Shown here: in pieces, positions 27,211 to 34,054 of the stretch | Numbering within the stretch: position 1 is the first letter of the stretch | How the letters are laid out: every line of letters starts with the position of its first letter | Origin: Planctomycetota bacterium | GTDB lineage: Bacteria; Planctomycetota; UBA1135; GCA-002748355 | Direction of reading: 5' to 3' | Assembly (NCBI GenBank): GCA_002685965.1 | Contig: NYZE01000124.1 | Span: 1-34,164 of the forward strand | Length of the DNA stretch: 34,164 bases | Notes under the pieces: model-generated | The model's database searches: none | The model's input: the letters and a program-made list of their open reading frames with translations, nothing else | Told to the model about the DNA's origin: nothing | Position numbers and translations under genes: made by a program

Positions 27211-27738
27211 CTATCCCTTTGGCCGGAAGGCCTGCACACACGCAGGGTCCGTCTCCAGGCGCGGACCCTCGATGAGATCGACGCAATAAGGAATCGCGGG
27301 AAACACCGCCATGAGGCAATCGTGGATCGCTGCCGGCTTGCCGGGCAAGTTGACGATCAACGCTTGGCCCCGGATTCCGGCCGCTTGACGGGACAGGATG
27401 GCCGTCGGCACGAATGCGAGGGATACGCTGCGCATGAGTTCCCCGAAGCCGGGCATGAGCTTCTCCGACACAGCTTCCGTCGCTTCGGGCGTCACGTCGC
27501 GTGTTGCTGGCCCCGTTCCACCAGTGGTAACGACCAGGCAGCAGCGCTCCCGGTCGACGAGTTCGATCAGCGTCGCCTCGATCCGATCGCGTTCGTCGGG
27601 AATCACCCGCACCACCGGCTCCCAGGGCGAAGTCAGGATCTTGGTCAGCTCGTCGTGGATCGCCGGCCCACCCCGGTCCTCGTATTCGCCTCGGCTCGCC
27701 CGGTCCGACACCGTGACGATGCCGATGCGCACGGTCAC
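27211..27738 (-). CDS. mog: Molybdopterin adenylyltransferase MogA
   Basis: 175 aa from GTG 27738; the long open frame upstream is the shadow of ald. It matches MogA from end to end: SDRAS (11-15), IPDE with D48, TTGGTGP (71-77), D81 in ATRDVTPEA, MPGFGELMR, and AILSRQAAGIRG, ending in EGPRLETDP and AFRPKG. The Asp pair corresponds to the catalytic residues of E. coli MogA (D49 and D82). It adenylylates molybdopterin before metal insertion in molybdenum-cofactor synthesis. It is slightly shorter than E. coli MogA (195 aa) because a loop near the C-terminus is missing. Its GTG overlaps the ald stop by four bases (GTGA). No other Moco gene lies in the window. Confidence 0.95.
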   Translation of the reverse strand: MTVRIGIVTVSDRASRGEYEDRGGPAIHDELTKILTSPWEPVVRVIPDERDRIEATLIELVDRERCCLVVTTGGTGPATRDVTPEATEAVSEKLMPGFGELMRSVSLAFVPTAILSRQAAGIRGQALIVNLPGKPAAIHDCLMAVFPAIPYCVDLIEGPRLETDPACVQAFRPKG

Positions 27739-28853
27739 GCGGTCAACGCCTCGAGCGGGCTGACGTAATCGACCCCAAACGAGGCGGCCACGGCCGGATC
27801 GGTCAACTTGCCGGCAACGACGCTCGCCGCCCCGCGGAAGCTCTCGTCCGTCTCGATCACGGCACGCGCTCCGTGCTTGGCCAACCTCTCGACCCAAGGT
27901 TTGGTCGCGGCGGTCAGCGCGAAGGTCGACGTCCGTGGCACGGCGCCAGGCATGTTGGCCACGCAGTAGTGCACGACGCCATCGACGACGAAGGTCGGGT
28001 TCTCGTGCGTCGTCGGTCGTACGGTTTCGATGCAGCCACCCTGGTCGACCGCCACATCGACGATCACGGCGCCCTGCTTCATGTTCACGAGGTCGGCCCG
28101 CCTCACGAGCATCGGGGCACGCGCGCCCTTGACCAACACCGCGCCGACCAGGAGGTCGGTGGTCGGTAAGTGCTGCTTGATTGCATAGGGGCTCGAGTGC
28201 ACGAGTTGCACGTTTGGCGGCAGGACGTACGACAACCAGCGCAGACGCTCGAGGTTGATGTCGAGCACGACGACCTGGGCACCAAGTCCGGCTGCCATGC
28301 GTGCCGCTTCGGTGCCGACCGTGCCGCCACCGAGAATCAGCACCTTGCCCGGTTCCACACCGGGCACCCCACCCAGTAGCACTCCATTGCCACCGTAGGG
28401 CAGCTCCAAGTGATAGGCGCCTTCCTGCACCGCCATGCGTCCAGCGACTTCGCTCATCGGCTCGAGCAGGATGAGTCCGCTGCCCGGGACATCGACCGTC
28501 TCGTAGGCGAAACATGTCGATCCCGTCTTGAGCATGGCATCCGTCAGCTCGCGACTCGCCGCCAAGTGGAAGTAGGTGAAGAGGGTCTGGCCCGCACGCA
28601 TACGCGGCCACTCGGGTGCGATGGGCTCCTTGACCTTGACGATCAGGTCCGCAGCACTCCAAACCTCGTCGGGACCATCGACCAGGCGCCCACCGACATT
28701 CGTGTACGCATCGTCGGCAATGCCCGAGCCGAGACCGGCACCCCGCTCGATGAGAACCTCGTGCCCGCCACCAATGAGGTCCTCGACACCTGCAGGAACC
28801 ATGCCCACGCGGCCTTCTTGGGGTTTGATCTCCTTTGGAACCCCGACGATCAA
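27735..28853 (-). CDS. ald: Alanine dehydrogenase
   Basis: 372 aa, TTG start at 28853 supported by GGAG eight bases upstream and by the protein beginning [16 protein letters not shown]. Family active-site residues are all present at standard numbers: R15, K75, H96 and D270. The NAD-binding Rossmann motif is [11 protein letters not shown] from about residue 174. It interconverts L-alanine and pyruvate plus ammonia using NAD. Length is normal. It overlaps mog by four bases, so the two are translated together, an unusual pairing with no obvious metabolic reason. The 48-base spacer upstream makes cotranscription with the unknown genes at 28902-30793 possible. Confidence 0.96.
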
Positions 28854-30110: not shown

Positions 30111-30793
30111 CACGAGGCCGTCCCTCCGAGTCGCCGGAACAAGGGTTGCAGCACGCGAGCACGGTCCGCGCTCCCACTACCCGGCAGCGGCAAGAGCCGC
30201 ACCGACTCGTCGGCGGCCGAAGTCCACGCAACGCGTGGACCGAGCACGAGGTCACGCAAGGCACGCAGCTCTTGCCCGTAGAGCAAGAGCCGGCAGCGCT
30301 GCGGCCGCCAGGGCTCGCGTCCGAGGTTCTTGATGGACATGCGCAACCACATCCGGCGGGCGTCCTTGCGCGGCTTCCTGCGCAGCGCCACACGCCACGG
30401 ATGGTGGTAGCCCTCCTGTTCTCTCCACGCAGTTCGAAGCTGCTTGTCCTCGAGCACGTGCAGCTCTTGCTCCTGGGTTTCGTCACTCGTGTCAACGACC
30501 GACAACACGAACTCGAGCGGCGCATCGATCCAGCCCGACACACGCCCATCCGGCGCCAGCACCGTCTCGCTCGCGAGTTCGACCTCGAGCGGGTGCCGCG
30601 GCACCGTTGCTCGAATGCGCAAGAGCGACCGGCCTTCGGGCAACCCGAGCAGCGCTTCCCACAGCACTTCGCCGTCCATCGCCACGCACCGCACCCCGTC
30701 GCGACGCCGCTCGAGCAACCACTGCACGCCGCAAAGCTCCGCCTGACACGAGGCGGCGCTAGAGGGAACAGGAACGTCGAGCGTCAAAACCAT
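30110..30793 (-). CDS. Unknown protein coupled to the coiled-coil lipoprotein gene
   Basis: 227 aa from ATG 30793; the frame stays open to 30856, so up to 21 more residues are possible. I do not recognise the family. The protein has no signal peptide or membrane helix, so it is probably cytoplasmic. It reads as mostly beta strands with Trp and Arg: VEVELASETVL, WIDAPLEFVLSVVD, then an acidic helix DETQEQELHVLED, then HHPWRVALRRKPRKDARR, MWLRMSIKNLGREPW and CRLLLYGQELRALRD. The stop overlaps the start of the next gene by one base, so the two products probably work together. It is the first gene of its unit; 189 bases separate it from the tRNA on the other strand. Confidence 0.65.
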   Translation of the reverse strand: MVLTLDVPVPSSAASCQAELCGVQWLLERRRDGVRCVAMDGEVLWEALLGLPEGRSLLRIRATVPRHPLEVELASETVLAPDGRVSGWIDAPLEFVLSVVDTSDETQEQELHVLEDKQLRTAWREQEGYHHPWRVALRRKPRKDARRMWLRMSIKNLGREPWRPQRCRLLLYGQELRALRDLVLGPRVAWTSAADESVRLLPLPGSGSADRARVLQPLFRRLGGTAS

Positions 30794-30982
30794 GGACTTG
30801 CGGGTTCGAGGGCGAAACGGGGATCCGCGGCCTCTCCCAAACCGCAGTCCACCCACCTAGTATTTCCTGCCCGAACGACACCCGCAACCGCGCTCGCTCA
30901 CCGCCCGGAAACCCCTTGCGGTCCCTGCGGCGGTTGATAACGTCCATTGGCCTGCCCGCTGTCTCGCAACCTCGGGCACCAT

Positions 30983-31059
30983 GGGCGATTAGCTCAGTTG
31001 GTTAGAGCACTAGCTCGACAAGCTAGGGGTCGGTGGTTCGAGTCCACTATCGCCCACCA
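30983..31059 (+). tRNA. tRNA-Val (anticodon GAC), CCA encoded
   Basis: All arms fold: acceptor GGGCGAT 30983-30989 with ATCGCCC 31049-31055; D stem GCTC/GAGC; anticodon stem CTAGC 31010-31014 with GCTAG 31022-31026; variable loop GGGTC; T arm GGTGG-TTCGAGT-CCACT with one G-T pair; discriminator A 31056 and CCA 31057-31059. The anticodon loop reads TCGACAA, giving anticodon GAC at 31017-31019 (valine, GUC codons). The base before the anticodon (position 33) is C at 31016, whereas nearly all tRNAs have U there. The body otherwise looks like a normal bacterial tRNA-Val(GAC). Confidence 0.93.
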
Positions 31060-31064
31060 CATAG

Positions 31065-31502
31065 AAGACTGTCGATGCTGCACTTGCAGCAACCCGCGCG
31101 AGCCGCGCCGGCGCGACCTGTTTCGGTAGCGGTTGTCCGAGTAGCTCACCGTTGTCGCTGCACTACGAAGGATCGTGGAGCCTCGGGGCGACGCTGAAGA
31201 TCCTCGTTACGAATGGGCCGGCAACGACTGCGGGGTTGGTGCTCATCGGAGCGTCGGCGAACTCGCCGTTCCCGATCGACCTTACCGGCGCCGGGATGAC
31301 GGGCTGCAAGTTGTGGCACTCGCCGGATCTCGTGTTCGGTGCCGCGTTCACCAGCAACAGTGCGATGCTGTCGTTGCCGATCCCGAGTGTGGCGAGTCTG
31401 TCGGGCTTGACCCTGTTCTCACAGGGCTTCGCGATCGACTCCGCCGCCAATGCGTTCGGCATGAGCGCGAGCAATGGCGGGAAAGTCGTCATTCGGGATT
31501 AG
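31065..31502 (+). pseudogene. Headless fragment: C-terminal beta module of a secreted protein
   Basis: The frame is open from 31065 (just after TAG at 31062-31064, three bases past the tRNA CCA) to TAG at 31500-31502. It has no ATG or GTG start before the module begins at about 31113 with ATCFGSGCPSSSPLSLHYEG. The only possible start is TTG at 31152, inside the module, with no ribosome site. The sequence has the pattern of the C-terminal module common in secreted planctomycete proteins: a GCP-type Cys motif, ATLKILVTNGPATTAGLVLIG, SLPIPSVASLSGLTLFSQGF, then SNGGKVVI at the end. It is best read as the 3' remnant of a larger secreted-protein gene whose front was lost at the tRNA border. A small TTG-started protein of 116 aa is the alternative. 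Confidence 0.7.
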
Positions 31503-31575
31503 CAACGGAGCTCCCGGCGGGATCGGAGAAGAGCAGATTCTTGGCCTCCGGTTCCGGCTCTGGCCACGCTGAAGG

Positions 31576-31602
31576 ACGGGCTTCCACCAGGTGGAAGCCC
31601 GT
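31576..31602. terminator. Perfect hairpin between convergent fragment and CotH-like gene
   Basis: ACGGGCTTCCACC at 31576-31588 and GGTGGAAGCCCGT at 31590-31602 are perfect inverted repeats around one central base, giving an 11-base-pair stem with a small loop. It lies 73 bases after the fragment and 31 bases after the stop of the CotH-like gene. It is probably a bidirectional terminator. Its survival beside the fragment suggests the fragment keeps the natural 3' end of the lost gene. Confidence 0.7.
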
Positions 31603-31633
31603 TCCGCTCTTACGGCTCGACGTTCAACAGGCC

Positions 31634-34054
31634 CTACTTCGGGCAGAACGTCATCTCCAGCGCATTCGAACCGAGGAAGCCCGACGTGTCGATTCCGACC
31701 GTCTGCAAGTAGAGCCGCAGGCCCACCAGGTTGGTGTCATCCGGGATCGGGAACGGCACGTCGGCGCTGCCTGAACCGTTGCTGGGGATCAGCAAGAGTC
31801 CGAGTATCGGCGGTGAGACCAGCAGGACGACGTCGTTGGCCAGCGGCACCGAGAACGGCCCGGCGGTGAGCAACGTGAAGAACATGCTGTTGGGCACGCC
31901 GTTGCGTAGCTGCAGCGTCGGCGCCGAGGCGATCTTCGGACTGCCGGCCAAACCGAACGTGATCTGGTGCGCCGTCGGGTCGAGCGCGGAATAGGTGCGC
32001 GTCCCGCAACTCGCCGGGAAGTTGACGGCCTCCGGCGTCGGCACGACGAACGTCACCCACGGGATCCGTCCGTCGATGACGCGCCCGGTCGAGATGTCAT
32101 CGAACTGATCGCCGAACTCGACGTAGTCGAGGATGTAGCTCCCAGTCGCGTCGAACAACGCGACCTCTTCGCCGCTGCCTGAGAGCTTGAAGTTGGCGTG
32201 TAGCTTGCCGTCCTTGCTGTCTTCGTCCGCCCAAACGAGGATCGTCTTACCGGGCTGGATGACGGTATTCGCCGGGAACGGCCACTTCTTTGAGTTGCCG
32301 AGGTCGTCGCTCAGGTGCATGCCAGCGAGGTCGACCGCCTGAGTCCCCGTGTTGACGAGCTCGACCCAGTCCTCGCGCTCGCCTTTCTCGTCCTTGATCC
32401 CGCTCGCGTTCTGCGCCAAGAGCTCGTTGATCCTGATCGGCGACGAACGAGTCGGCCAAGTGACACGGTAGTTCGGACGCTGGTAGCCGTTGCCGTAGTT
32501 GATCCAGCCGGTCCAAACACCGGCCGTCGTGGCCGCACCAACCCAGTACTCGACCTGAGTGCCGGCCGGTTGCGCGACGATCGAACCGCCCCAGACACCG
32601 TCGTTGGCCCCGCCGTCCATGTGCTGGCCGTCGTCGTACATGGCCGCCTGAATGAACGGTCCCCGCACGCGCCAGTGCAACAGAACGCTGGCTGCACCGG
32701 GCGCCCGCGCCGTCACCCAAACCTTGTTGGTGCGCGTCGGCCGCACCGGCGTGTGACGCAGCTGCGACACGGTCACTGCCGTGCGCCGAATATCGGCGTG
32801 GTTCGTCAAGTACCTGTGCCGACCATCGATCATCGACTGCAGGCTGCTGATCGTCGAGAACCAGCTGAGCCGATAGGCCGTCGTGACATTGCCCCTGAAG
32901 CCGGCGACGCTGTACAGACGATGCGGGTCGCGTTGCACTTCCGCGTCGATGAGGTTCTGCAGGACGTTGATGCGTGCGCGTGCAGCTGGCCAGTTCAGCT
33001 CGTCCTTGATCCTGCGGACCTTGGCGGCGAACCGCTCCTTCCACGGTGTGTGCGCGAGCGGCTTCGTCATCAACGGTCGAAGGTTGCCGCTGCGTAGGTA
33101 GGCATAGTAAGGGGTCAGGTTCGGCAGCGACGTCTGCGAGTTGTAGTCCGTGTAGCCGCCGAAGCAGTTGTTCATGTCCCACGGCAGCAGGCTGAAGCGA
33201 CCGTGATAGTCGTCGTGGTACACATAGATGTTGTGGCACCAGCGGCCGACGTAACTGTCGAGCCAGAGCATCGTGTTGCCGAGCGCCAGCACCGTCAGGA
33301 CGTTCTCGACGTCGAACACCTTCGGTAGCTCGGTCGGCAGCTGGGCAGCTGGGGTGTTGTTGAGCACGTCGCAGGCCTTGATAAGGTCGACCCACGGGTT
33401 GGGGTTCTGCTCCGTCTTCAGCTCGAAGCCCTTCTTGTACTCGTCGACGTTGTTTCCGTACCAGTTGAACCCCGTGTAGTTCGCGGGGTTGTTCGACGCC
33501 TGTCGCTCGCCGCGGTAGCGATTGCCGTCCTCGGTCGGGAACCAGTCCTCGAGCAGGTCCTTGTTGATCTGCTCCGTATTGATGTACGGGCCCCAGTTCA
33601 AGCCGTTGATCTTGAGGACGACGTAGTTGCTCCTCGGCGCGGGCGTGAACTTCCGCATGATCTCGTAGCCGAACACTTCACGGGTCATCGTCGGGTCCAT
33701 GAAGTTGTTGTTGATGTTCAGGGTCTTGTGCCCCCAGAGCTTCTGTTCCTGGAACTCATCGAGCGCGACCTTGAACGCCCTCTTCTTCGACGACGCCGGG
33801 ATGCCCCAGTAACTCGAGTTGCCGCGGAAGCGGACGCCGACGTCCTTGTAGGTGTCGCCGTCGATCTTGAGGTCGGCCTTGATGTAGATCTTGGCCCGCC
33901 AGTTGTTCGAGAGCTGGGTCCAGTAGTCCGGCTGCTGGAAAATGAGCTCGACCGTGCGGACCTTCGTGATGTCGTAGAGGTCCTTGCGTTGGGCTGCGAG
34001 ATCAGCAGAGGGAACCTGCAGGGCAACGAGGATGACGAGCGGGGCCAGCTTCAT
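31634..34054 (-). CDS. Secreted CotH-kinase-family protein with lamin-tail domain and C-terminal module
   Basis: 806 aa, ATG 34054 with GGAG six bases upstream. A signal peptide (residues 1-21) is followed by a CotH domain (about 35-400) with GVRFRGNSS at 73-81, NINNNFMDPTMTRE at 113-126 and the acidic LLPWDMNN motif with D293. A beta domain follows (about 430-540), then a lamin-tail domain (about 545-670) with IRINELLAQN, DWVELVN, and WPFPANTVIQPGKTI. The last 125 residues (from about 682) are the same module type as at 31065-31502, ending GSNALEMTF. CotH in Bacillus phosphorylates spore-coat proteins; secreted planctomycete relatives have no proven substrate. It is the first gene of its unit; the promoter should lie in the last 110 bases of the window. 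Confidence 0.9.
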   Translation of the reverse strand: MKLAPLVILVALQVPSADLAAQRKDLYDITKVRTVELIFQQPDYWTQLSNNWRAKIYIKADLKIDGDTYKDVGVRFRGNSSYWGIPASSKKRAFKVALDEFQEQKLWGHKTLNINNNFMDPTMTREVFGYEIMRKFTPAPRSNYVVLKINGLNWGPYINTEQINKDLLEDWFPTEDGNRYRGERQASNNPANYTGFNWYGNNVDEYKKGFELKTEQNPNPWVDLIKACDVLNNTPAAQLPTELPKVFDVENVLTVLALGNTMLWLDSYVGRWCHNIYVYHDDYHGRFSLLPWDMNNCFGGYTDYNSQTSLPNLTPYYAYLRSGNLRPLMTKPLAHTPWKERFAAKVRRIKDELNWPAARARINVLQNLIDAEVQRDPHRLYSVAGFRGNVTTAYRLSWFSTISSLQSMIDGRHRYLTNHADIRRTAVTVSQLRHTPVRPTRTNKVWVTARAPGAASVLLHWRVRGPFIQAAMYDDGQHMDGGANDGVWGGSIVAQPAGTQVEYWVGAATTAGVWTGWINYGNGYQRPNYRVTWPTRSSPIRINELLAQNASGIKDEKGEREDWVELVNTGTQAVDLAGMHLSDDLGNSKKWPFPANTVIQPGKTILVWADEDSKDGKLHANFKLSGSGEEVALFDATGSYILDYVEFGDQFDDISTGRVIDGRIPWVTFVVPTPEAVNFPASCGTRTYSALDPTAHQITFGLAGSPKIASAPTLQLRNGVPNSMFFTLLTAGPFSVPLANDVVLLVSPPILGLLLIPSNGSGSADVPFPIPDDTNLVGLRLYLQTVGIDTSGFLGSNALEMTFCPK

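Follow-up and report, generated by a model that had tools for sequence, protein, structure and literature searches.

How a module that otherwise closes secreted proteins came to stand directly behind a tRNA gene, with neither a start codon nor a front part, is the question raised by one locus of a planctomycete genome. The window analyzed here is the whole of contig NYZE01000124.1 (34,164 nucleotides, forward strand; assembly GCA_002685965.1), part of a metagenome-assembled genome of 3.57 Mb. A reading made from the sequence alone had attributed the loss of the front of the gene to the turnover of a mobile element at the tRNA. In the present study, the fragment, the bases that separate it from the tRNA and the corresponding regions of related genomes were examined computationally.

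The headless module

The tRNA-Val(GAC) gene is called at positions 30,983–31,059 (plus strand) by both ARAGORN and Rfam. Five bases behind it, at 31,065, opens a stop-to-stop frame of 145 codons, which ends with the stop codon at 31,500–31,502; this length is unremarkable here, since many overlapping frames are equally long. The sequence-only reading had the frame begin no more than 6 bases from the CCA end and saw no start codon before the module, and both observations stand: the first ATG, GTG or TTG is the TTG at 31,152, which already lies inside the module. Its description of the frame as a C-terminal module and nothing else is accurate for residues 20–141, which carry the module whole, and inaccurate for the first 18 codons, which are spacer and element sequence (see below), not gene.

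The module (FGxGC ... SNGG; 31,122–31,499, plus strand) belongs to a secreted-protein family and appears here without front part, signal peptide or start codon. A profile was built from the other genomic copies, the window copy serving only as the first query. It matches residues 20–141 of the fragment (nucleotides 31,122–31,487) over positions 1–125 of 126, with 124.7 bits. Because the profile covers the fragment nearly end to end, the module is whole from nucleotide 31,122, and a start at TTG 31,152 would truncate it. Placed among the 52 module copies above 45 bits, the fragment would rank 20th of 53. The genome as a whole contains 54 module matches at E≤10, the fragment itself included, mostly within longer frames. 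Neither Pfam nor NCBIfam matched the fragment, a protein search of the genome-contig collection with it returned no relative, and a literature search on the module found nothing; the predicted fold of the fragment alone (pLDDT 40) was too poor for use. The fragment is most likely untranslated. Since the module is undecayed, its front was lost recently or the fragment has been kept. Elsewhere in the genome, a 164-codon frame (C38:14433, L111) reads by eye as a signal peptide followed by the module alone, so the module may stand by itself as a secreted protein.

On the 3' side, a perfect terminator hairpin had been described. A strong hairpin is indeed found between the genes at 31,574–31,605 (folding z -2.15, equalled by 6 of 200 shuffles), but its designation as a terminator fails: it has no T-run, and a scan of 30,700–31,700 for a stem followed by a T-run detected no terminator-like site. 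The hairpin lies about 28 bases from the stop codon of the convergent neighbor on the minus strand, which encodes an 806-residue CotH-kinase/LTD protein (31,634–34,054). Positioned between two convergent genes, it tells little about the module fragment. The CotH-kinase/LTD gene itself carries a divergent copy of the module at its end (41.5 bits), and the two module genes are thus arranged tail to tail.

A three-way junction between the tRNA and the module

The border of the truncation, which had been drawn at the CCA end, lies instead at the end of a folded element, 3 bases before the first residue of the module. Directly behind the 3' end of the tRNA, after a spacer of 10 bases (31,060–31,069), a 49-base three-way junction occupies positions 31,070–31,118 (plus strand), where it is matched by a covariance model termed R3 with 46.3 bits (E 8.1e-11). 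Its helix P1 pairs 31,070–31,074 with 31,114–31,118 (the outermost pair is not standard), and P2 and P3 comprise 31,077–31,090 and 31,094–31,111, respectively. With the element ending at 31,117/31,118 and module homology starting at 31,122, the junction between them (31,119–31,121) is placed within a few bases.

A second copy of this arrangement exists in the same genome. In a DNA search of the genome, the similarity of the window locus to the tRNA-Val(TAC) gene on contig C5 extends beyond the tRNA itself, to query base 135. Among the 37 distinct tRNA trailers of the genome, that of C5 resembles the window trailer most (score 37, next 20; at most 27 in 2000 mononucleotide shuffles), and the two share a common branched fold. 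When R3 was applied to the genome (30 sources covering 37 tRNA places), the C5 trailer scored 57.7 bits and the next best place after these two 13.6 bits; at E≤1e-3 the C5 copy is the sole match besides the window. The C5 locus (27,538–28,400; L106, L205) consists of the tRNA-Val(TAC), the junction element and a broken integrase, and represents a second scar in the genome. Inspected by eye, its integrase corresponds to the front half of a tyrosine recombinase, frameshifted and ending before the catalytic domain; Pfam gave no match to this half. In the window, the 2.2 kb that follow the element contain no integrase detectable by tblastn, in line with the earlier statement that none remains, and we therefore consider the locus a remnant and not an element. 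The genome has just two PF00589 matches, neither of them on this contig; the frames that contain them are 320 and 324 residues long.

Distribution of the element

As a query against 154 genomes of the order we used the open half (P0002) of the C5 recombinase, and 38 of these genomes contain relatives; ARAGORN located a tRNA in the stretch at 46 of the 56 recombinase loci that were read. Three covariance models were prepared: R1 from 3 sequences, the window included, R2 from 24 sequences, and R3 from 27 integrase-linked sequences, from which the window and C5 were excluded and three further sequences (L221:3387, L220 and L230) were omitted as misplaced or weak. Models seeded on the window were used to choose and align the R3 sequences, so the independence of R3 from the window is incomplete.

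Within the order, R3 yields 44 matches in 33 of the 154 genomes at E≤1e-3. All 33 matches of at least 32 bits are situated at a tRNA or tRNA remnant: 27 of them at an intact tRNA called by ARAGORN, 9–32 bases away (9–15 bases in 22 cases, 22–32 in five), and six at remnants recognized by eye. The same is true of the ten that were absent from the training of R3, eight of which are at a tRNA and two at a remnant. Integrase sequence is present no more than 1.8 kb downstream at 27 of the 33 (tblastn, self-matches removed). A first count had used each locus's own protein and the doubtful frames L218 and L228; the recount without these gave the same 27 of 33. At the six other sites, the window among them, tblastn found no integrase at E≤1e-3, and at one of the six, in genome G020, a fragment resembling an integrase is visible on inspection. 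Only 2 of the 11 matches with 28.5–31.3 bits are at a tRNA, and these weaker matches were accordingly treated as mostly noise.

In a phylum-wide set of 392 genomes, matches at E≤1e-5 occur in 13 genomes, six of which are from the order, including the genome under study. Outside the order there are eight such matches, six behind an intact tRNA, one behind what by eye is the 3' part of a tRNA, and one without a tRNA; an integrase is found at five of the eight. All four of the intact integrases tested match PF00589. As for tRNA types, the element appears behind tRNA-Val and behind genes classified by ARAGORN as tRNA-Pro, Gly, Arg, Thr, Phe, Asp, Ala, Met and SeC, with the integrase next in most cases. 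One copy (G141) follows a tRNA-Thr and is succeeded by a decayed recombinase (124 residues by tblastn).

Exact patterns were also searched for. The pattern with CTGCACTTGCAG behind CCACCA occurs in two of the 154 genomes, that of the window and G032, and the similarity of the G032 trailer is marginal if taken alone (reached by 2 of 2000 shuffles). G032 also holds a degenerate tRNA-Val copy (C99:35,071–35,130, L057) that has lost its D-arm region and is followed by a junction-like trailer (by eye), perhaps an old att relic. The exact-pattern scan of the genome-contig collection gave 19 matches, one of them behind a tRNA (L187, the same sequence as G141:C273); the other 18, none behind a tRNA, look like chance and were set aside. 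In viral contigs the scan gave two matches, neither at a tRNA. A shorter exact pattern gave 43 matches.

Several additional features of these loci were noted by eye. At L232, L234, L225, L303, L304, L219, L223 and L312, the tRNA pieces flanking the element, 5' halves or 3' parts, are broken off around the anticodon arm or later, which points to a crossover in that arm and not within the element. A second trailer type, with the motif GGGCACTTCG(C/T)C ... GGCGAACG, precedes related integrases behind tRNA-Pro, tRNA-Arg and tRNA-Gly (L245, L248, L252, L256 and L257). Between the junction element and the integrase start, dyads of the form GGTAGTCCTACC or GTGCACGTGCAC are seen at L206, L218, L223, L251, L254 and others; they are probably operators of the integrase gene.

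Covariation and folding of the element

At gathering score, Rfam 15 finds only the tRNA in the window and in 10 other loci, no family matching the junction element, and literature searches on the junction structure found nothing. In the 27-sequence training set, 92.4% of the cells are paired, and 78 cells show double changes, whereas shuffles give 24.6 such cells and slid controls no more than 9; for one of the five measures in this test, the number of pairs changed on each side, 2 of 500 shuffles attained the observed value. A set from outside the model (20 matches and one stray row, L319:1922) is 92.7% paired, with 59 double-change cells versus 16.4 in shuffles and at most 7 when slid. Both alignments were fitted to the model. 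An alignment of 24 stretches by MAFFT, delimited by R1 and folded with RNAalifold, arrived at the same three helices; 10 of the 13 pairs carry double changes.

With the outermost pair omitted, G-U exceeds A-C on the tRNA-sense strand by 20:2 in the training set and by 12:1 outside the model (the stray row being dropped for this count), which suggests that this strand is the one that folds and that the element acts as RNA, although the bias may be inflated since covariance models favor G-U over A-C. Folding energy was dropped as evidence: integrase-linked trailers do not fold more stably (mean z -0.91, n=45) than ordinary tRNA trailers (-0.87, n=35, and -1.14, n=20). What sets them apart is covariation and a branched shape, the latter predicted for 20 of the 45 integrase-linked trailers, as opposed to 5 of 35 and 1 of 20 ordinary ones. 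Of these 45 trailers, 22 come from loci outside the model, and the junction element is therefore one type among several.

The tRNA-Val(GAC) locus in related genomes

The tRNA-Val(GAC) of the window is identical to those of the same-family genomes G003, G004 and G006 except for T-stem positions 50, 51 and 65, differences that are weakly consistent with a 3' part of the tRNA brought in by an element. R3 has no match in genomes G001–G006 of the family and one in G007, at another tRNA, and the tRNA-Val(GAC) trailers of the family bear no resemblance to that of the window. The T-stem of the G007 tRNA-Val(GAC) also deviates; an integrase effect was considered for it and dropped, as tblastn found no integrase behind this gene.

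Relatives had been named as the place to look for a full-length gene behind tRNA-Val. The module and the frame are both missing from all 19 relatives' tRNA-Val(GAC) loci, followed up to 1.5 kb downstream (L035 and L039 have little or nothing downstream). The set contains no genome of the same genus, hence neither an empty site nor the full-length gene was seen. The lost front part of the module gene was not found. No attR repeat of the 3' end of the tRNA was found within the window when up to 3 mismatches were allowed, and the DNA search of the genome returned only other tRNAs at E≤1e-3, a search in which a short repeat could be missed.

Origin of the locus

Taken together, the stretch 31,060–31,118 is very probably the scar of an integrative element at tRNA-Val(GAC). 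The earlier proposal that the front of the gene was lost through element turnover at the tRNA is thereby strengthened, the end of the element being still in place. An integrative element with a tyrosine recombinase would have inserted into tRNA-Val(GAC), its end restoring the 3' part of the tRNA and setting the three-way junction behind it as a new trailer. The integrase, the remainder of the element and the front of the module-bearing secreted-protein gene, which may have been either cargo of the element or chromosomal, would have been lost later, leaving the tRNA, the junction element and a bare C-terminal module. The likeliest cause of the junction at 31,119–31,121 is a deletion reaching from the end of the element into the middle of the module gene.

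Other explanations of the three adjoining parts were weighed. The trailer might be the ordinary host trailer of tRNA-Val, common to paralogous tRNA-Val genes and unrelated to mobile elements, and the strongest similarity within the genome is in fact that between two tRNA-Val trailers. The same structure, however, stands behind many other tRNAs, mostly with an integrase next, and it is missing from the tRNA-Val(GAC) trailers of the family, where the one match, in G007, is at another tRNA. We reject the plain paralogue reading because other tRNAs and integrases carry the structure, and consider it most improbable. An unrelated rearrangement or a metagenome misassembly could also have joined the parts, given an assembly of 167 contigs that is 93% complete with 2.7% contamination, but the C5 precedent in the same genome, the five other sites in the order where the structure adjoins a tRNA or its remnant and no integrase is matched, and the coincidence of the junction with the edges of both element and module make such an accident very unlikely. 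The idea that the short frame is a working gene, begun at TTG 31,152 or at a non-standard start and driven by the tRNA promoter, draws on the undecayed state of the module and on the C38 frame with its signal peptide and module alone. It is nevertheless quite unlikely, as a start at TTG 31,152 would leave out the FGxGC motif, a signal peptide is lacking, the codons upstream belong to the element, and the frame recurs at none of the 19 relatives' loci.

The role of the junction element is a separate matter, for which the main rival to an RNA is a folded single-stranded DNA recombination site used by the integrase. Integron attC sites are the precedent: they fold as single strands in which R and L repeats pair, as demonstrated for the bottom strand (PMC8352920), and they resemble the present element in being structure-conserved sites tied to a tyrosine recombinase. 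The location of the element, at the end of an integrating unit beside such a recombinase, would suit this function. On the other hand, the element is a branched three-way junction with three covarying helices, not a single imperfect hairpin, and has a tRNA-sense G-U bias (which top-strand single-stranded DNA would fit too), and the tRNA remnants suggest a crossover in the anticodon arm, beyond its borders. A DNA site is thus unlikely. As an RNA within the tRNA transcript, the junction element would shield the maturation of the tRNA, bar read-through from the tRNA promoter into the integrase, or both.

Comparison with known systems

A related arrangement is that of intS in KplE1, where an integrase gene likewise lies beside a tRNA with regulatory sequence in the gap and the integrase promoter is overlapped by attL at the tRNA. 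In that type of gap the sequence is explained by sites for the integrase and RDF that overlap the promoter (PMC2951348), whereas here a covarying three-way junction is followed by a dyad; in the window, moreover, the integrase is gone. The terminator and antiterminator canT at the end of Tn916 offer a functional likeness, an element end that governs read-through from a host promoter, with a probable cis-acting RNA (PMC11658703). Here there is no T-run, and the role is a proposed one. Hammerhead ribozymes, again small structured RNAs beside integrases, occur near bacterial integrase genes (PMC3088659). The Rfam hammerhead models gave no match to the junction element at gathering score, nor at E≤10. 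The joining segments of the element also look too short for a hammerhead core. Tycheposons, described from another phylum, are tRNA-targeting elements with tyrosine recombinases like those found here; we know of no such junction structure in them.

Implications

As a casualty of an element at a tRNA, the gene fragment is ordinary; the junction structure is the part worth following. It has been kept by compensatory change across several families of one phylum. It is bound to the stretch that separates an integrase from many kinds of tRNA, and its novelty lies in its absence from Rfam 15 and from the literature searched. We tentatively propose, with nearly as much to be said for this as against it, that the three-way junction may constitute an undescribed class of structured RNA, which the tRNA-integrating elements of planctomycetes graft onto their targets as a new 3' trailer, which acts in the tRNA transcript, and which can outlive the element and so marks dead insertions devoid of an integrase. 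If this is true, its roles in the tRNA transcript could include insulating, antiterminating, directing 3' processing and perhaps self-cleavage. The structure may then be used as a test for dead insertions without an integrase, and it raises the question of how an element that serves as the trailer of an essential tRNA spares that tRNA and escapes transcription from the tRNA promoter.
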